From assembly GCA_950295325.1 (NCBI GenBank), contig OX485805.1, forward strand, positions 39,543,501-39,607,500: a stretch of 64,000 nucleotides of DNA, written 5' to 3'. The position numbers and the translations under genes are program-made. The notes below the pieces were generated by a model. The model did not search any database, had not been told where the DNA came from, and saw nothing but the letters and a program-made list of their open reading frames with translations. Positions 2,276 through 59,340 of the stretch are shown here, piece after piece. Origin of the DNA: Polytrichum commune (lineage: Eukaryota; Streptophyta; Polytrichopsida; Polytrichales; Polytrichaceae). Position 1 is the stretch's first letter, and each line of letters opens with the position of its first letter.

Positions 2276-2556
2276 AGAAGAAGAAGAATAATAATGGGCA
2301 CCACCAATGATAGCCCTGCTACAGCAGTGGCGCCCTGCCTCTCACCCTTCCCCTCTTGCAATTCTACTGCCATGACTAAGTGCAGCAGTTTCCACGTCTC
2401 CGGCCCGTCTCCGTTGCAGAGCTCCACTAGCTCCCATCCGCCATAGCCAGCGCAAACCCTCGCCACCCCGTCCCACCCACTTCCCACACCGCCACCATCC
2501 CCAACACATCTCCGGGCCTCCGCGTCTGCGACACCAGCCCCTCCAGCTCCTCCACA
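2051..2556 (+). promoter_or_regulatory. Upstream/5' leader of the DUF1218 gene
   Basis: The DNA becomes GC- and CT-rich toward the start codon at 2557, as expected of a plant 5' leader. It contains an (AAT)n-(ATT)n tract at about 2235-2273 that is self-complementary and could fold into a hairpin, followed by AAG repeats to about 2290. An A-rich TATA-like stretch lies near 2010-2030, but no transcription start can be fixed from sequence. Long frames through the tract on both strands are low-complexity and not credible genes. Confidence 0.4.
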
Positions 2557-3132
2557 ATGGGCGCCGCGTCGTTTCTGGTGATCGGCATCACTCTGGTGTT
2601 CTACCTGACGGCCTTCGGCCTGGCGCTGGGAGCCATGGCGCGGCGCAGCAAGGGCGACTTAACAATGGTGGACGAAGACCTCGGGACGCTCAGGTGCCAA
2701 TACACAACCGACATTGCCACAGGTCTCGCGGCAGGTGCGCTGATCTTCTTGCTGGTTGCGCAGCTGTTCATTTCTGTTGTGACGCGCTGCCTGTGCTGTG
2801 GTGGGGCGGGTTACAAGCCTGGAAGTGCGAGAGTGTTGGCTGTCGTTGTGTTCATCTTCAGCTGGATCTCGTTCATTATCGCTGCTGCGGCTCTGCTTGC
2901 CGGCGCTAGCCAGAACAAGATCCAGACCAAGGGGCTGTTCTACTCTACTGGTCCTAATGTGACGTGCAGGCAAGTGCAGAAGAGCTTGTTTGCTGCGGGG
3001 GCGGCTTTTACGTTCATTACTATGCTGTTGGCTGAGGTCTACTATGTGCTGGTTTCTAAGGCCCGTGAAGGCGAGTCATGGCAGGCTTATAACCCTGGGG
3101 GTCCATCCGTTGGCATGTCAGCTTACAACTGA
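2557..3132 (+). CDS. DUF1218 four-pass membrane protein (MWL/VCC-like)
   Basis: A single-exon, 191-residue protein. Four hydrophobic segments are visible at about residues 5-27, 52-76, 91-117 and 143-166, matching the four-helix layout of the plant DUF1218 family (for example Arabidopsis MODIFYING WALL LIGNIN and VCC/DEAL proteins). The family signature region is present: Cys47 followed by a polar 'YTTDIATG' stretch, a long second helix with 'LLVAQL', then the Cys78-Cys80-Cys81 cluster. 'SWISFIIA' in helix 3 is also characteristic, and Cys137 lies in the loop before helix 4. The tail after residue 169 is short and polar. The start was chosen because it is the first ATG, has a strong context (ACAATGGGC), and the first helix begins immediately after it. 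Known family members affect lignin, wall composition and vein or leaf symmetry in endomembranes. The specific role here is unknown. Confidence 0.88.
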   Translation: MGAASFLVIGITLVFYLTAFGLALGAMARRSKGDLTMVDEDLGTLRCQYTTDIATGLAAGALIFLLVAQLFISVVTRCLCCGGAGYKPGSARVLAVVVFIFSWISFIIAAAALLAGASQNKIQTKGLFYSTGPNVTCRQVQKSLFAAGAAFTFITMLLAEVYYVLVSKAREGESWQAYNPGGPSVGMSAYN

Positions 3133-18517: not shown

Positions 18518-21500
18518 TCAGGTCATGGAGTTATGCCGGACATGATGATGGTGTTGGAGTTGCGCCCTGGAGCATGTCGTCGCATTCCGAGGCATGGAGT
18601 CGGTTCGAGCGATAGCCGAGTCCTGCATTTTCCTAGTTCCACCACCATCGTGACCCTGCCACCATGGATTCACCGAACCGGAATTATAAGCTGCGACGTC
18701 TGATCGGTCAACCCTCGCATGGTATTGATGATGATCCGGCACCTCGAGGTTCGATCTTTCGGGGCTTATGGTTTTCGCGGGCTTCCGAGTAACCACAGTA
18801 CTACTGCTGCTGCTCCGAAATCCTAGTCTCTGCAGCGTCCGCGCGACCAACCCGCTCGTGCGGTTCGCCGGCTTCAGCTGGCTCATGCACCCACTTCCGA
18901 TTCCGCCTTCTTTCCTCGTCGTCCTCGTGGCCGCTGCGGCGGCCTGTCGAAGCTGTCCCGAGTGGTTTAAATTCCTGGTACTCTGCCTCGAGTCCGAATT
19001 ATTGTAACGCCCGCCGCCGCCACGAGCTTTCGACTCTGCCATGATGCTTTTCGACAGCACTTTCCGCATCTGGCTGAGCTCCGCCTCCAAGCTTTGCAAC
19101 CGGCTCTCGGTCGCCTGGTAATTCGCGTCTTGAACATTCAGTTTGGTTTGGGGGTTAATTACAACCTCTGGGTGAGAAAACTCTTCATGAAGCTCCTGCG
19201 TTGTCGATCGGAACGAGTCTTGAGGGTGGTGATGTGGGAGCACGAAATCGCTGCAGTGCAGGTGCAGAGGCCCAGAGTTGTGCAGAGGCCCTGAATTCAG
19301 AGGTCCGGAGTTTGGCACCGAGTTCACTCCGGGTGTGGATTTTGTCGGGAGCAGCACTGACCTTGAAAATGTGTCGAAATTGTTGTTGCAGAGATCGGCG
19401 GATGCGGTGGTGTCAGATCGGAAGGATTGATGGTGGCCGCCGATGCCGCCGATGCCGCCGCTTGCTAATTCGAGATGGGAGTTGAGGGCGGTTCGTGTGT
19501 GCATTTGTTGCACAAACATCGCTTGCACCATGGTCCGCAGTGGGATCAAGTTGTTTTGGACAGCGTGAGTGCACACTTTCAGAGAGAGTTTCTGGCAGTT
19601 GAGCGACTGGCAGACGATTAGTCGCTCCTCTTGCGTCGTGTTTGGATGATCCTGCACACGTGACAACATCATCAAGTAACAAAGCTTAGCAATCTGAGAT
19701 AGCTTGGAAGAAGTTCTAGGATTTTCTGCGACATAGATGATGACAGCACAAACCTCTACCTTCATATATCAGGGCTCCTGATTTCACATTGATCCAATAA
19801 CATCATTGAATCAATGCCCACCAAAAACAATGTTGCGATTTTACTGTTCGGTTTCTGTACCCCACCCCAACCCTGAAAGCGCGAATCAGGGGAGAGGCAG
19901 TGATGGTTGGAATTCCTTGGAGTATGTGCATCAGAGACCTCTAAATTGATACATCGTCAATACTGATGATTCCACATTGACTTAATCTCATCAAACCACA
20001 ACATTAATCAATGCCTACTCAACACAGGGTTGCATTTCTAATCTTCCGTTTCATTCCATATTTCAGTGGAATTATCAGTCAACACTTGAGGTTCAACAAA
20101 TCATGAGCTAAATGTTGATGAGTTAGCACTAATAATAGATGAATCCTGAAGGGCATAAATCAACAATGAATTGCTGGTCACTTGTAGTTTGACCTATGTA
20201 AGGTAGAAGCACCCAATTTCATCAGTGACCCCAGTACTAACACCTTTTTATCCCGAAGGAAGCAGCTACGTACTTCACCATGAACACTAATTATATTTAT
20301 CCAAGGACTAGAAACGTAGCTCATTTATTGAAAGAGACAAAATTTCAACGATCAACATTGTCCACTTTGAGGGGCTAGGTGATTAGATATCCTCTGATTA
20401 TGTGATCTCAATGCTCAAAGCGTAATTGGATACTTTGTCCATGTAAGTAAGACACCGTAGTGCTCAAAGTATCCGCGATAGACGTTCTACCTCAATGGAA
20501 GTGAGGAGGCATGCCGTGTGTTGAAGGTGCACATCCTACTTAGGCACAAGTAAGGTAGGTATGAGGCGGCTGATATAACCGATTGCAAGGCGACGCATGT
20601 CTCTTACCATAAGTAGTGATCAAGCCATGGCGGAGCCAACAATTATGGGTGATATTGTGCCTCCTCGTATCCATTCAAAAAGAAAAGCATCAGCAAAGCA
20701 AAAAATTACTTAGCCTGATCACCACGAGATGGATGTCAAGGTTTGGGTTACCTTGAGATAGGAGTCGATGGCTCGGTAGACATGATCATGCGTCAAGCGG
20801 GAGTACTCTGGCACCCTCTCCACAAGGTCGGCGAATTCGGCCGGGGTGAGGGACGAGTCGAACGCGATTTCGGCAAGGTACTCGTCCCAGAGCTTCGCCA
20901 CCGTCGACAACGCTTGGATGCACTGCGAGAAGCCGGGAGGAGCTCCTGTTTCCTCCTCCACCATGCTGTTGGTTCGGGTGTCGATGAAGCCTCGGTGGCG
21001 AGACACAAACAGCTTGACGATACGTTCCATGGATTTGAGCTCCGTCCGGAGAACAACGCCGCCGCTGTCTTTCTCCTTCTTGCTTGGCAGGAGGACGTCG
21101 TCGAGGCTTGCTTGCTCCAGTTGCAAAGCGATCCACGACTCCAACTGCAACCTGCACAAACAAATCTCTACACATTATTCTACGTTTGGATTCCACCTTT
21201 GGATTAGGTCACAACGCTCGGGAAGCTGTAACACCGGGTCCAATGAAATGAAGTTGATTTTAAAGTCCAGGGAGCTAAAAGGCTAATGGGACCAATGTGC
21301 GGACCAATGCCATGCAGATTTATGGTCTCAATGTCGTTCCGAGTTTATGGACTAATCCAAGTTGTAAACTTTCTTCATCTATAAACCCTTAAATGTCAAA
21401 GAGTGTACTTTAAGAATTAAAGATGACTTAAGATGAAAGACTTTCACTGATCGCATTTACGTTAAAAAGAGAGGTTGTTACAATTTCCTTACGGATTACA

Positions 21501-24357
21501 TCCATACACATCTTGACATGACAAAAACCCATGTATACGATTCTGATAGCAAAACATTTATAAATACACATAGCAAGGCTCCGAAAACATACTTATGTAA
21601 ACGTTAAACCTCGGAGCACACAGATTCATTGAGACGAGCGAATAGCAAGATCAGAAATCTAAAAACTTCACACATCTGTACCTGCAATCATCGAGCAATC
21701 CACTCGCCAATCCGCACCGCAAGAGGGCAAACAAGAAGCTAATGGGCACCGCGTCCCTCTCCAATGGCAGCAACCTCACCACCGCTTCCACAAGCATACA
21801 CAAATTAGGCTTCACCTGCTGTACGCCACCATCCATAGCCAGCCATGATGACCCCTGATGATCCAAATGATCATCATCATGATCATCATCTCTGTCACTA
21901 CCTTTGATTTTTCCAAGCACTCCACCCACATTGGTACCAAAAATCCACCGCTCCGCAAATCGTGTAATCACTTGCCCCACATAAGTTTCCTGCATTCCTT
22001 GCCTCCTTATAGCCACAATGAGACGCACAAACAAATTTGGAGGCAAAACAACCAGGTCCTGGATCCACCAGTCTCCCGAGACGGTGGAGGAGGTGCAGGA
22101 AGAATCACGGTGAGAAAAATTGTTGTTGTTGTTGTTATTGTTATTGTTATTGTTGTTATTGTTGATGTTGTTATTCCAGAACCTGCTCTCGCCTGACATG
22201 CTGTGACGAGCTTTGCGTTCGGCCGGGTCGAGAAGCTCCATACAGGCCACCAGGGCTAGGGACTCGATGCAACGGGTGATGATTTGGAGGTCGTCGGCAA
22301 TGGGGAGAAGACGTTCGCAGTGTTGGAGGACGATGAGTGTGTCTTCCCAGCTTTGCAATGAAACCTGCCATGGACATCATCGCCATTCATCAACCATGTT
22401 AGGAGAAAAATTTCGGAGATTGGAAGGGAGAGTTGAGTAGTTGTTGTATTCGATTGGAGAGGTTGTTGGAGATGAAACCTGTGCACATCGAACTCAACTA
22501 CATTAGGTATGTCTGGGTGAAGATTAAGGTGTTTCGGAGATTGGAAGGAGGTGAATTCCTGCGGTCGAATCGAGAGTTCGGAGATTGTGCACATCGAGAT
22601 TTAACCACGTCAGCGAAATGTCGGAGATTGTTGTGATCGATTTGAGAGGTTGGAGGATGTGAAAATCGAAGTCAACTACATTAACGAAATTTCGGAGACT
22701 GAACCGGAGAATTGCTGATTGTGATGGACTCAAGAGGTTGGAGGTTGTGCACATCGAAATTCAACCGTATTAGGGCTTGAGCCGCAGGATTGGTTGTTGT
22801 TATCAGTTCGAGAGGTTGGAGATTGTGTACATCGAAATCCAACCGCATTGGTGACATTCAGGGGATTGAACTGGGAAGTTATTAATAGTGATAGATTCAA
22901 GAGGTTGAAGGTTGTGTATATCAAAATTCAGACAAATTACTGACGTTACGGAGGTTGAACAGAAGAATTGTCAATTTTGATCGCTTCGAGAGGTTGAAGA
23001 GTGTGCACATAAAAGTAGTTCCACATTGGCGAAATGTCTGAGGTTGAACCAGATGATTTCTTATTGTGATCGATTCGAGAGGTTGGAAACTGTGCACATC
23101 AAAATTCAATCACACTGGCGAAATTTCGGAGACTGAACCGGAGAATGATCAAACCTAATCGATTCGAGAGGGTAGATTGTGCACATCATAATTCAACCAG
23201 TGTATTCGCTTCAACCCGACAATTGTTTGTTGTGATCATCGATTTGAGATAAATGTGGAGGTTGAGTTGCTTGCTAACCTGTGTGAGGTAGAGGTTGCTG
23301 CGCTCGCTCAAGTTGGCTCTCCCATACTCCTCCGACATTTGCAAAAACTCTGCCACACAGCAAAGCTCCGCAACATTCGACGGCTCCATGAGGATGGTGG
23401 AGCCGTAACAGAAATTGGCTACGAGCTCAAAAATCTCGGGTCCCCCCGGACACTCGCTCGGCAGTGTGACATCCTTGGCATCCTTCAGCAGGCGGCTTAA
23501 AAATCCGCTCCTCGAAATCAATGGAAACTGCCGCCAAGTACATCCAATCCAATTCAAGGCTGTCAGCCTCGGCTCTTCCGAACTTGCAAAAATATTCAGG
23601 ATAACATACATTAAAGTTCTTCGGACAAAAGAGAGCTGCCTAAGAGGAACCAGCTATGGGTTAGGGTTTAGGGTTTAAGCTTACTTTGTGAAGATGGAAC
23701 GCTCGGTCCTTCACTCGGATGATTACCGTAGTTGGCAACCCTGTTGCCTCACACCTGCATCATCAACAACAATATTTTGAGGATTCAACATGTTGCACTG
23801 AAAATGTAGCCTGCATGTTCTCTGTCAATCGCCTAATTTTTCGTAAAGTCTTCTTCAATCGAGCAAGGTCCACCTGTTTCGAAACCTTTTTCAACAATTT
23901 CTAACTGTTTTCTGAAGAAGAGTCAGGGTGTGACGCCACTCCCCAGTACTGGCCTCGAACTCGATCAAGAAAAAGAACAAAAGAACCAAATCTCACTGTC
24001 TCTACGTATACCTTTATTGAAGAATTGCATGGTCACTCATAGCAGAGATGTGATTCACTGCACTTTTCAATGGCACTCGGACAAAATCGATCGTTCCAGA
24101 ACATGGAATAGGTTTTAGCAAGATGTCTAGCGCAACTGTCTAGCGCAACTGTCTATCAAGTCCGGAGGAACCTTTCAACCTCTCCTGTAGAAGTAGTTGC
24201 ATTCTAGCAGAGATCAATACCTCAACTTAAAGAAGCTGCATTTTAACAAACTTAGAGATCTAATCCATTGCTTCTGGCCGGGTGCTGGCCTCGACCACCT
24301 TTAGCCCCGAAATTAAGTTTCAACAAGAAAGGAGTGAAGCCGGTAGACTGTGCTGCA

Positions 24358-40511: not shown

Positions 40512-42210
40512 CAGTCTAACCTTGTTAATACGACACTCGTTTATATGACACCCTTGATATTACGACACATTTTTGCGTGACCAAACTTTTTAGTTCAAAA
40601 CTCCCTCTTTTATACAACTACGACACTCGATAATATGACATTTAGAATCTCCGTTCTGTCATATTACAAAGGCAATTAATGCTAAAATTTCCTTCATCTA
40701 TGTTATGTACATCTAAAATACATCCATTTTCACTTGGGAACTACATGGAAACTTCACTTATCATTGGGAACTTAATGATAATTAGGGTTACTAGTGTAGA
40801 ATGGACTTGGTTAGGGTTAGAGTGGCCTCCTTCCTATTCTTTTGTTAGATTGTGAGCTTGAAGATGTTTACGATATGGATGAGACTAGATTGAATTTTAG
40901 AGCACATCCAAATAAAACATTAGCACAAGGGAAGGTGAAGGGTTGGAAGTTACAGAAGGAGCATGTAACACTTGCTCTTGTTATTAATTCAATTGGGACG
41001 ATAAGTTGAAGTTGCTTGTGATTTATATGTCTAAGCAACCATGATGTTTTGGAAGGTGACAACCTCATGAGTATGTTCGGTGGCACTCAAATAAAATTGC
41101 TTGGATGAAGGGGGATATATTTGAAGCTTGGATTTTGCAACTCAACAATCAATGCAAAGGCCAAAATCAAAAGGTGATTATGATTTTGGATAATGCCTCT
41201 TCACATGTTGTTAGTTTTGCCAAAGTTGGTAAGTCTCGTGGTTTTCCAACCTTGGAATTGAGCAACATGAATTTGGTATTCCTTCCTCCCAATGTTACAA
41301 GCATAGTTCAACCTTTGGATCAAGGTATAATAACATCTTTCAAAATACAGTACAAGAAGAAACTTTTGCAGTGGGTTTCATCACAATATGATGATGCCAC
41401 ATTGAAGGACTTAAGGAATGTGGTGCCCGACATCATACATGCTATCATGTGGAGTTATGAAGTATGGAGTGAGTTGGATGCATAGATAGTCGGGAATTAT
41501 TGGAGGATGGCGCGTATATTACTTTGCAACATGGAATGTTGATTTTGCCCTAGTTGATGAAAGGGAGAAGAATAGAATGCAAGAAGAATAAGATGAACTT
41601 GGTGCTATGCTTTCAAAGTTGCGATTGGGTGATGATGGGATATCAATCGAGACTTACATTCAGATGAAAGGGGAAGAGATTACTAAGCTAGAATTGAGTA
41701 CTAACGAGTTGGTGAATGTTGCTTTGGGATCCAATTATGCACAAGGCTTTAATCTTAATATTAATCTACACTCAGTAGATGTGGATGATGTTGCTCCACC
41801 TACAGTAAAGCTTAGTGATGCTAAATGTCATGCATCATTGTTGCCTAATTTCTTATTAGACAACTCTTTACATTTTGGTGTTAATGAAATTATTAATTTT
41901 CAAAAGCTAGTATGGAATTTAGACAAGATGACAATTGCTAACTTGGGTAGGCACCACCAAAGATCTTTGAACTCCTATTTCAAGAGTTCTTGAGAACATC
42001 TGTATTTGTTTGGAGTTACAAATTATTATTTCATACAATCTATATTGCTGAAACTCGTTGTATATATTTTAAAGCTCATATTGCTCATGTTTTTGTATTC
42101 CCTCAATAGTACAACAATTTACGCCATTCGTCATATAAGGAGAAAACGACACCTCGATAATACGACCTTTCTTGTGTTTCCCCATATGTTTCTCTAAAGA
42201 GGGAGAACAG
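40512..42210 (+). mobile_element. Decayed pogo/Tigger-like DNA transposon
   Basis: The left end CAGTCTAACCTTGTTAATAC, with repeated 'ACGACACTCG(A/T)TAATATGACA'-type subterminal motifs, is typical of pogo/Tigger elements. The right end ...AGAGGGAGAACAG is a weak match to it. Both ends are flanked by TA (40510-40511 and 42211-42212), the target site of the Tc1/mariner-pogo group. The 1.7-kb interior holds broken transposase pieces and no other gene. Confidence 0.7.
40845..41996 (+). pseudogene. pogo/Tigger-type DDE transposase remnant
   Basis: Three in-order fragments. First (about 40850-41090): YDMDET (40869-40886), holding the first catalytic Asp of the DDE_1 superfamily domain; it is followed by a frameshift or stop near 41007 and a TGA after 'SKQP'. 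Second (about 41096-41485): MILDNASSH with the second Asp at 41189-41191, and VTSIVQPLDQGI with the third Asp at 41318-41320. Third (41607-41993): an acidic, Leu-rich C-terminal region with 'ETYIQMKGEE' and 'STNELVNV', ending 'SLNSYFKSS', a tail shape common in these proteins. The N-terminal helix-turn-helix/CENP-B-type DNA-binding region is missing or unrecognisable. All three catalytic Asp positions remain, but stops and the lost start make it non-functional. Confidence 0.8.
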
Positions 42211-53580: not shown

Positions 53581-55780
53581 AGATTCGAATGTGTGCAAAG
53601 GAAAACTTGTAATTTTTTTTGCCGAGTGCCAACTTTAGGGATAATATAGTGACGTGTGAACATGCATAAATTTTCAAGTGGTTCAAAGCTTTTTGCAAAT
53701 TCCATCACTATTAGGTAGGGTCGGGTAAGACAAGACCTCAAGTGAAACAAAACAAACCCAACTCTTGTGCAGACGAGAAATTTATGTCCTTCTCTCAATC
53801 TTTCCTCTTTCTATCGCTTTTCATCACAACTACTATAAATGTGAAGAACATGTTCAGTTCAACCCTAATGTTGAAGTTAAAATTTTGAAATGCATGTGTA
53901 TAGAACAAGCACAAAAATGATGACTAAAACCTTAATGGTAGAGCATTTGAAAGTTCATCACAAAGGGCATAAGCCATCTTTGACTTTAAGTTGTCAATAT
54001 GATTATAAGAATTTCAAGTTTATTTGAATAGTTTAAGTGTTATGTAGTAGATGTGAAATATTACATTAAAGTGTAGAAATGAAAAATAAAATTACAACAT
54101 CACAAAACTTTCACAAAGTATTCAACATTTGTGTGAAGTACCTTAATGAGGTTGAAATCAACTATAGTCTTTAAATATGAAGATTTGATGGGAAAACACA
54201 CAATATAGTGTAGTTGAAATCTTAGACAAGTCATATTTAGATAAAATTTATGGACGTAATTTAAGAAATTGGACTTTTTATTTGCTTCAATTCTATGGGT
54301 GGATCCATCAATACCCATCTAATGTACCCAAGCTTCATGGGAAATATGTGAAACCTTAGCGGTTACTTGAACGTATGCTCTTAAAATATGATGGAAGATC
54401 AAATTTTAATACCGAGTCTATGTAATAAAATGTTGAACAATGACAATATAAAACAAATTGCTATAATAATCTCATAATCAATTTCGCACATTCTGTTGCA
54501 AAATCCTACCATACAATTTTATCATAGAATTCTATGAAAAATTAAGCATTTCATAATTTTGGACTTGAACTTAGTCTAGTTTTACTTAAATATTAGTTAG
54601 ACCTATAGAGTTTGCAATTGCAATCAAATATTTTAGTTCAAACAACTCCTAAATTAAAAGTGGAATGAAAAGTAGATTTCCAAAAGTCACCATCATTTCA
54701 TCAAGTTCTACCGAAACCAAATTATGAAATAGTTAAAATAATAATATAAAGTATCAATTATATATAATATAAAAATAAGAAATGAATCTAAGACAAAGTT
54801 GCTAGTTATACATTTCAAGGACTCTTTGGCAATGATCTAATATATATGTAAATTTACTGCATTTTTCAATGCAACATGTGCGCGTGATGTGAATTTGGAA
54901 GGATATGGCTTGGCAAATTTTAAGCTAATGATTGATGAATATAGTTTAAATCCAATTCTATCAAGGTTGTCTTGTGAGATTTTTTATTTTTTTATTTTTT
55001 TATTTTATTTTGGTTTTGTTTGGGTGCACAAATTGAAAGTGTGGTGAGATTATGTCTATAATATACAAGCAAAATATGGTTGTTGGCATGTTCATGACAA
55101 TGTATACAACCTGCACTAGACTGAACAAATTGAAATAAAAAAATAAAATCATATGATATGATATGCATGACGATCATCCTTTAGGCACCAAATTAGAGTT
55201 CATTGCTTGTGTGACAAGAATCATTAATGATGTTGGTAGAGCAGGCTACTTTATTGGATAACTCAAAAGCTACATGTTGGCATTGGATTATTTTAATAAA
55301 GTAGTATGTACCATAAACGTCATCAACAATCCTCACCATATAAACAATAAACACTAATATGGTGCACAAAAGATTATTGTTGTGCATATCATTTGACATA
55401 ACTTCCAATTTTTTTAACAAGTTATGCATTTGGTTCAGCCTAATGCAAGTTGTACGCATGGTCACAGGCATGTCACCAAGATTATGCTTCTAAATCACAA
55501 ACATAATTTCATGATGCAACTTTTGGTAGATTTTGACTTCAACTATATTGTGTGTATAGTTGGGGATTCAGTGAATTGGTAAGGGGGATCGCCAAAAACA
55601 TCCATAAAAATATCCATCCAAAAATGGCACGTCATCACAAGCATTGAAAAAAAACTTTTATTTAAACAACCAAAAACAATAAAGCTTAGAAGGCCTCTTC
55701 TATGTTGTCTTAGAAGAGACCACACACTGATATGTATAACAACACATGATCAGATGAGGCACTCATAGCCACCTCTTTTG
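53581..55780. other. Intergenic with dispersed AT-rich repeat
   Basis: 54285-54595 is a copy of the repeat at 33295-33605. The 92-codon minus frame at 55193-55471 has no recognisable domain; it could belong to the element upstream but I cannot show that. Confidence 0.4.
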
Positions 55781-55789
55781 CGCTACCAT

Positions 55790-56985
55790 CTACACAAGTA
55801 GTTGGTACCTAGATGCTTGGCTTCTAGACCCAAACGTTGAGGCAGAGCCAAACACACATTGAATGAGACCCTCCATTGGAGTTGAAGGTGATGGCCTAGG
55901 TTGCCACCAAGGTGTTGCCGATGGGCCATAGATAAAGCCACATTGATGCCGACCATTGTTGTCGTTTGCAACCCCCTCCACCAAGTCTTTTTCTGCCAAG
56001 TTGTTAGAGGTTTGAAGAGTAGCATCCCGCCTGCCACCTTCCAATGGTACCTCATCGTCATCACGCAAATTTATATCAATGTTTCACTCCTCAACCTTGT
56101 GGTCAATTGCAATTTGCTGCACGTTGAATAACCTTATGTTAGACACAACCATGATAGTGTTAAAGAACATGTTTGAGATATCTTCCATTTTTATGTCATG
56201 AGGATTCATCATGACCCTTCAAATTGAAGCAACCCTTTTCACATCCATTCTAGTAGATCTCAAAGGAATGCCCCATTTGAAATTTAGATCAAATTGCCCA
56301 CTTTTAGACATGTGAAACAATGTTCCAAAAAAAATAACACCAAAATGCTTCGTCATACAAAAACGTGCCCATTAGTCAACATGTTGCAATACATTGTGGT
56401 GGGACAAACTCACACGATTTTTTGATCCATTCTTCTCAAATTTTGCGCACTCCATCTTCCCCTCATTCATATCACGGCAAAGACATTGTAATGCACAAAC
56501 TCAAAGTGGTGTTCCCCATTGTCCTTCATGGAATACCCCACCATACACAAAAAAATTATGCAATCCCTGACCTATTCAATTTTTACAACAAACAACATGC
56601 CTCAGAGGTGGATTTGCATCCCATCCTAAAGCAACCTTGATTTTCTTATCCAACATTGGTAAATTACTAAAATCACCCTTGAACACTATGTGAAAATGGT
56701 TATGAGTCAATGCACCTCCCTTCTCAACATAGCACAATCTAGAAAAACAATGATCCTTCATGAACCTCCTCAAATTCACCAACAATCTACTGTCAATGTC
56801 CATGTTCACCACCGCAATGGTGACGGAAGCTTCAAATCTAGGCTAAATTTTGATCTAAACAAATCTAAATAGCTATAAAGCAACGGGAAAGTTGATGAGG
56901 TCAAAAAGGTAGTTGCACTTTTTGGAAAAGTCTCCCAACACCCGCATTGAAAACCTCTTCAATGCCTTTTCAAAGCTATTATTTT
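55790..56985 (-). pseudogene. Decayed HUH-endonuclease (Replitron-like) gene
   Basis: The minus strand reads, across three frame segments with stops, as one protein. It runs from KRFSMRVLGDFSKKCNYLF (about 56940) through VNMDIDSRLLVNLRRFMKD and CYVEKGGALTHNHFHIVFKG to KIKVALGWD. After a frameshift come GYSMKDNGEHHFEFVHYNV and then EGKMECAKFEKNGSKNRVSL, GTLFHMSKSGQF and VMMNPHDIKMEDISNMFFN. The last segment is a 92-codon tail to 55790 (SNNLAEKDLVEGVANDN...). H-F-H (codons 56698-56690) fits the two-histidine HUH metal-binding motif. Y-S-M-K (56535-56524) fits the YxxK catalytic motif of Rep/HUH single-strand nucleases. I infer a rolling-circle-type transposon protein of the Replitron kind. The assignment rests on motifs and remembered family shape, not a search. 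It is non-functional as read. Confidence 0.55.
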
Positions 56986-59340
56986 TGATTAATTCTTCAT
57001 TCAGTCACCCTTGCTTTGCAAGCTTTTTCCTTGTTGAGGTAGTATTGCGGGTACTCAAAGGGTACCCTGCAAGCATTGCTACTTAATTGTGCAGTGCAAG
57101 GTGAGAGAATCATTATATACCTTAGTTGTTACTTTGATAATATCACTCTAAGCCACAATACTGATACGAGGGCGATCTTAGGTAGGTATGAAGGTTCTTG
57201 CTATATTGACCCAGATGGTGTTGAAAACCCGTGGAAATATTCTCAAATAACCATACCCTACTAATATCAGAAGTTGTGAAGTCCTCATTATAGATATTCA
57301 AATAAGTATAAAAAAGGGTCAATACCGATCCAATGTTGATATATACCATTAGAGATCAAATTACAAACTTCTTAAGGTTAAAAGCTCAATGTGAATCAAT
57401 AGGAAGTTGACAAACCAAATAACAAGAGGTGCTAGAGCATCCCACAAGATAGGTTCCTAGAGCAACATAGTGACCATTACTTTCTTAACCATCATGTATT
57501 AAGAGGTTAGATTTTAAGAACTAAACCCAACAAGACATGTGTTCAGAAGAGATTGGACTACGTGCTTAAGATTCATCAACCAATTTAGATGAATGGGTAG
57601 TCAACACAACCAAGAGGATTTAGGTGTTCATTTCAATAACTCAACACACATTCACTTTCAAAAATCACAATCAAATCAAAGTGCAACCCCATTTCCACTC
57701 CGATTTATATTAATGCTTCATCATAGATTTGCTAATGCAACAACACAAGTTCCATTACATAATTGTGAACGGTAGAAGTTGGAGGACATCAAGAATGAGC
57801 ATCTAAACACCCACATACCTTAAACCCTCATCGAGGAATATTATTGTTATGGCATGTCCATGAACAACCTAAAATTTGTAAATCATGCATATTCACACAA
57901 CTAAGGATACAAGTGATCAAGTTTCCTTAAATATTTGGCCAATAATCCCATTCAAGAAACTGTATGTGGCAGTTGCCCCACATAACTTACTTTCAACATT
58001 ATCTCATGACATGTTGAGCATTTTCTTACATGATCTTGAAAATCTTGCACTAAAGTGGGTGACCTTCACTGCTTAAACCTTTCATGGAGCTCTACTTTTG
58101 AGGCATGACGTGTAAGTTGTGGACATAAAACGGGCACTTATAATGATGGACTATTCCAAGCTTATAAAATATCAATTGGAGGTAAGTCAACCACTAAGTA
58201 CCAGTTAAAAACTAGATGCAAATTGGACCCACCATCTTACATATTATGTGCTTTGATAGTTTGCATGACTAAATAGATAAGGAACATCGATGCATTTACA
58301 TCGGCATGCAATAACCGTTCACCAACTCAAGTTCGTATCCATATGGGTAGTTTGTATATTCTAGTGTTTGTGTGTACCTACATCAAATTCTTGGTTAATG
58401 GATACTCCATATATTGGCCAATCACACAAACTTTGAAAAGTGTTCATGGGACTAGTGGCATGGTCTCTATCTGCTCGATTGTGTTGTGGATCACCCATCT
58501 CCATCTCAATTTGTTTGGTCACACCGACCTTGGGTTCTAGATTTCTTGAAGTCCAAAACCAACCTGGCAAATGCATGTTTTTTTCATGATAGAGGTAGTA
58601 CGGCTGAAAGGACATCAAGCAAACACATGGTTCCACGTCAAGTCGGTCTCCTAATAAGGACAATAGGTGGTTGTTGGTGGGAGGCAACTGCGAAATGACT
58701 TTTCATTCCAAATTACAGTTGGAATGGACATGATTTCTGGTAATAAAGATTCCAACTTGAGACCACTATTATACTACACATCGATTTATGATGACTAGAA
58801 ATTATACATGTGATTCAATCTCCATGAATTTGGAGGAAATTTATTGAACATGAGACCATTTTAAAGTTGATGTGTAAAAGCTGCCAATCAAGGACTTTGT
58901 GATGGAATGGATGAAACATTATCAACTCCTAGGACTCCTAAGGGCTCAGAGAATTTATTTGGTGATAGAGAAATTATGAAACCCAATCATCATCACAACC
59001 ATTACAAGAATTGAAGAAACCAAACATTGGCATCTTGTTCGATATGTGATATATCTTGTAAAACATTGATCAAATGCTCACGATTAGAGAAAACTGGCTC
59101 CAAAATGACACGAGTTAAATAACAAGAAAACGGTAGAACCGTGAGGCTTTGTCCTTTACTATGAAAGACTACAATTATAGTTGTCCACTTTGCTCATGCC
59201 AATCCATGGCTATTTACGATACCAAACCTTTCTTGGATTTTGTGCACCTTCTTCTCAAATGCAGGTCAAGGATTTTGATATCACCCGAAATTTTTAGAAT
59301 AAATAATCAAGAACTGCCGAAATAACTATAGTTAACTAGA
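56986..59340. other. Intergenic with repeat fragments
   Basis: About 57500-57780 holds an AGGTAG-family-like fragment ('AGAGATTGGACTACGTGCTTA', 'TTTGCTAATGCAACA'). The other frames (60-108 codons) lack domains. Confidence 0.35.

Follow-up and report, generated by a model that had tools for sequence, protein, structure and literature searches.

A very probable dead, 5′-truncated Replitron copy in the genome of the moss Polytrichum commune

The window analyzed here is a 64,000-nucleotide stretch of the Polytrichum commune genome (assembly GCA_950295325.1, contig OX485805.1, positions 39,543,501 to 39,607,500, forward strand). Besides the locus under study, it contains a DUF1218 gene (2431-3132, plus strand), a split NPH3 gene (18518-23653, minus strand) whose weak BTB match falls slightly short of the cut-off, with tandem repeats (22628-23171) lying between two NPH3-side pieces, and a DDE_1 transposase piece (41060-41485; 79.6 bits), which we take to be pogo/Tigger-like. 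A preliminary description, made from the letters of the window, had placed this DNA in a land plant. The NPH3, BTB-like, and DUF1218 pieces bear this out, as does an Lhca3 exon from this genome (L071; one gene) that was closest to the moss Physcomitrella (367 bits versus Physcomitrella 6L35, 329 versus pea 4XK8, 362.5 versus entry 9LUT, and 259 versus the 6IJJ/6IJO sequence of Chlamydomonas; PMC7884438 gives the source organisms of 6L35, 4XK8, and 6IJO). Fourteen chlorophyll a/b-binding matches with equal scores were clustered on contig C5 of the assembly at 1.75-1.85 Mb. The starts of several small contigs look bacterial (57-72% G+C in 5 of 12 sampled; the window has 39%), and no organelle contig was recognized among the 12. 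The features of the locus are as follows.

55566..56836, minus strand: very probable Replitron relic, 5′ end absent; span alignable as DNA with L013, the nearest copy in its own genome
56482..56827, minus strand: HUH endonuclease domain, divided over two frames; PF21859 profile positions 1-115 of 128
56698-56690, minus strand: H-F-H at the HUH motif position, encoded in the first minus frame
56571 to 56470, minus strand: open piece of 34 amino acids (aa) with the YxxK block, flanked by two frame changes; PF21859, 23.4 bits
56535-56524, minus strand: Y-S-M-K, the single-tyrosine YxxK motif, in a frame different from that of H-F-H
56162..56320, minus strand: Replitron_C remnant, PF21860 positions 25-77 of 77, one stop inside; 18.5 bits, cut-off 27
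56827-57090, no strand assigned: separate high-copy repeat, 85-89% identical elsewhere and not Replitron, adjoining the relic at its missing 5′ end

The HUH half of the relic occupies a single minus frame (56842-56579); after the tyrosine, the reading returns to this first frame from 56500, so that the frame changes at least twice. First-frame stops start at 56578, 56503, 56374, 56221, 56086, and 55792. A minus-strand reading broken by one frameshift and several stops had been proposed; the stops are there, and the single frameshift gives way to at least two. H-F-H and Y-S-M-K are both encoded on the minus strand where they had been reported. Their HUH/YxxK spacing had also been offered as a signal, and this argument failed: across the six frames of the 64-kb window we counted 24 H-U-H triplets with a similarly spaced Y..K in some frame, 9 of them with both motifs in one frame. 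The H-F-H and YxxK pair alone is therefore not beyond chance, and motif spacing was dropped as evidence for the relic.

Replitrons are eukaryotic transposons, reportedly described by Craig in PNAS in 2023, that encode one protein, in which a single-tyrosine HUH nuclease is followed by a Replitron domain at the C terminus. When stops and frame changes were bridged with X, the relic gave a continuous reading whose HUH part matched the Pfam profile PF21859 (Replitron_HUH) at 37.9 bits (cut-off, 28.5; E = 2.6e-9); over its full length the reading scored 34 bits against this profile. The part 3′ of the HUH domain matched PF21860 (Replitron_C) at a score below the cut-off; this match is collinear and reaches the end of the profile. 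Among seven unjoined pieces searched, the HUH-half piece matched PF21859 positions 1-73 (12.8 bits; E = 0.16) and the tyrosine piece positions 92-115 (E = 8.3e-5), the profile positions being consecutive across the two; the other five gave two weak unrelated Pfam matches and three blanks. A blind six-frame Pfam scan of 54500-58500 (E ≤ 0.1; no joining) returned PF21859 at 18 bits and PF21860 at 15.5 bits, both in the expected minus frames and each below its cut-off, along with one further weak and unrelated match (Rhodopsin_N; 15.4 bits) and no match on the plus strand. The proposed HUH-nuclease origin is thus upheld at the profile level, with the read-through above the cut-off and two separate pieces falling on the same profile. 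No competing family emerged from PHROGs and NCBIfam searches with the relic. Neither the relic nor alignment A1 had a relative among solved structures when searched by sequence in the PDB, where four weak matches to unrelated proteins were the sole result, and neither 12 pattern stretches in viral contigs nor 44 in GTDB contigs were confirmed as relatives; the tie to named Replitrons therefore runs through Pfam only.

No helicase or Helitron family was detected in the six frames of 54500-58500 (E ≤ 0.1), a search that a strongly decayed domain could escape, nor was a helicase found in five paralogue frames (E ≤ 1). The helicase-free appearance on which the preliminary description had set the locus apart from Helitrons was therefore confirmed at these thresholds. 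Plants have one other group of HUH transposons, the Helitrons, in which truncated copies are common; this is the attraction of reading the locus as what is left of a Helitron RepHel gene after loss of its helicase half. However, Helitrons carry a tyrosine pair and a fused helicase, while the relic has one tyrosine (YxxK) and, among Pfam families, Replitron_HUH fits it best, with Replitron_C rather than a helicase coming next. We consider a Helitron origin very unlikely.

At its 5′ edge the relic meets a different sequence. When 55000-57600 was used as a genome query, 39 of the 42 listed matches fell on window positions 56818-57090 with 85-89% identity, a lower bound on the copy count of this repeat since 40 of 1,745 candidates were scored. 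Twelve aligned repeat copies (10 loci) share a right end near 57090; on the left they run at least 60 bases past 56827, the point at which, in the window, repeat sequence gives way to Replitron sequence. The repeat unit (window 56827-57090; L049-L058) measures ∼260 bp or more; in L056 and L057 it occurs as two same-strand copies with starts 709 and 740 bp apart, an arrangement like that of a small LTR-type element or of tandemly inserted copies. Homology among the paralogues often extends 65-95 bases beyond the relic upstream, and this stretch opens with an ATG (agreement of at least 60% of 29 rows) and is absent from the window. No convincing match to a paralogue-type 5′ start was found in the 1.4 kb of the window that come next; those that appeared were at chance level or, in the other loci, fell well upstream of such a start. 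Given the repeat at the 5′ edge and the missing ATG-led stretch, the relic is, as judged from these alignments, 5′-truncated, and the residues previously reported upstream of ∼56838 are foreign to it. Of the span first given (55790..56985), the relic itself stands, ∼56838-56985 belongs to the high-copy repeat, and homology continues on the other side to 55566. Just past this 3′ edge lies an imperfect 467-bp palindrome (55045-55511; 67% self-complementary), possibly a foldback-type element.

Replitrons have short direct terminal repeats of 5-11 bp and target-site duplications of 2-8 bp. When copies were aligned pairwise within three groups, no element ends, terminal repeats, or target-site duplications could be made out in these diverged sequences, and two guessed edge zones of L011, the locus with the longest open frame listed (see below), had no 6-9 base word in common; a 6-mer is shared in 64% of shuffles.

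Searches for further copies covered the 407.8-Mb assembly (64 contigs, of which seven, at 77.9, 70.3, 59.2, 59.1, 52.9, 44.7, and 42.1 Mb, account for 406.1 Mb). Replitron_HUH matched 116 times at E ≤ 10, and 72 matches exceeded the cut-off, 69 alone and three with neighbors in frame. In some cases two of these rows are fragments of a single copy, and the lowest-scoring rows may have arisen by chance. None of 14 control genomes, whose identities are not specified, matched PF21859. The top 40 of the 116 rows were used for paralogue comparison. By DNA (E ≤ 1e-6), 39 of these 40 loci matched the relic, L039 being the sole miss, and by tblastn (E ≤ 1e-3) all 40 did. The closest copy, L013 (C3:38843013-38844237), is 75% identical over 1.27 kb (window 55566-56835). 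Locus L011 holds PF21859 (57.7 bits) and PF21860 (35.2 bits), both above their cut-offs, in one 289-aa frame, the longest open frame among the 116 listed matches. PF21860 also exceeded its cut-off in the paralogue frames of L026 (32.4 bits) and L024 (39.4 bits), and gave no match at E ≤ 1 in those of L010 and L044. The structure predicted for the 289-aa frame was too poor to use (mean pLDDT, 47.4). A search for intact copies elsewhere in the genome had been suggested; L011 answers to this in having both domains in one frame, with nothing longer than 289 aa among the listed matches. The nearest copy to L011 (C1:52263768-52264984) was just 82% identical (40 of 288 candidates scored), so L011 bears no sign of recent movement.

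To this L011 frame we aligned 38 loci and the window (39 alignments; L039 missing). Divergence at codon positions 1, 2, and 3 was 0.203, 0.173, and 0.458, respectively, and 0.214, 0.193, and 0.432 in the window's own row. The excess at third positions indicates that ancestors of the family were selected as protein; the Replitron family in this genome was evidently under protein-level selection in the past.

At the HUH position, the 40 paralogue rows read H-F-Q in 26 cases, H-F-K in four, H-F-H in one, and something else or a broken motif in nine; 27 rows retain YxxK and 35 the tyrosine. Intact paralogues without H-F-H and YxxK had been named as grounds for rejecting the relic. H-F-H is indeed absent from 39 of 40 rows, but YxxK and its tyrosine largely persist, and the profile match is independent of the last histidine. 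With most rows reading H-F-Q and one in 40 reading H-F-H, the H-F-H of the relic is probably drift from an H-U-Q-like motif. The prevalence of H-F-Q should be useful for defining the Replitron active site. We also entertain, tentatively and as an unlikely reading, a moss-lineage branch of Replitrons whose nuclease had H-F-Q rather than H-U-H and that spread to many copies and then became extinct; the ceiling on listed open frames and the lack of any closer scored relative of L011 point in this direction. If this were true, the novelty would lie in the H-F-Q motif state and in the extinction of the whole family.

Some CRESS-type Reps also have H-U-Q, and Replitrons are said to be weakly linked to CRESS-type Reps; together with H-F-Q in most paralogue rows, this would suit a Rep gene endogenized from a CRESS-DNA virus or related plasmid. 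However, no superfamily-3 helicase was found in 54500-58500 or in the five paralogue frames, Replitron_C stands in its place, and the dispersed genomic copies fit a transposon. In tblastn against phage records just four matches appeared (E values between 3 and 9), including one at 30.6% to a replication initiator in a small virus record, and viral contigs held no confirmed relative. We therefore regard a viral or plasmid origin as highly improbable. Chance occurrence of two short motifs in a noncoding stretch, which the abundance of such pairs in the window would favor, can be given practically no weight against the E value of the domain match, the 1.27 kb of DNA homology with another chromosomal site, and the codon-position pattern.

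The locus is thus very probably a dead, 5′-truncated Replitron copy: PF21859 lies above its cut-off, PF21860 follows collinearly though below its own, and L011 passes both, in agreement with the dead member or close relative first proposed. By analogy with the Replitron family, the live enzyme would have nicked one strand at the element ends and kept the nicked DNA end on its tyrosine, and the element would have been copied to new sites via a single-stranded intermediate. The relic then decayed through stops and frame changes, and the high-copy repeat now occupies the site of its 5′ end.

According to section 3.1.7 of PMC10741241, Replitrons occur in green algae, liverworts, mosses, lycophytes, and ferns and not in hornworts or seed plants. 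Since mosses fall within this range, the relic would be an ordinary dead member, and the moss copies do not extend the published host range. They add to a recently named transposon group a moss genome with many old Replitron copies, and they show that a real relic can be recognized by tool-less reading of raw sequence.

Compared with known systems, the relic most resembles Replitrons in its HUH domain followed by Replitron_C, its single tyrosine, the lack of a detected helicase, and its many copies in a non-seed land plant; it differs from them in being dead and 5′-truncated and in having H as the last HUH residue where most paralogue rows have Q. With Helitrons it shares the status of a eukaryotic transposon with an HUH nuclease, whereas neither their second tyrosine nor their helicase was seen at the relic. 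CRESS-DNA virus Reps are likewise single-tyrosine HUH nucleases, some of them with H-U-Q; in contrast to these, the relic carries Replitron_C, has no helicase found, and belongs to a family whose copies are dispersed in chromosomes.
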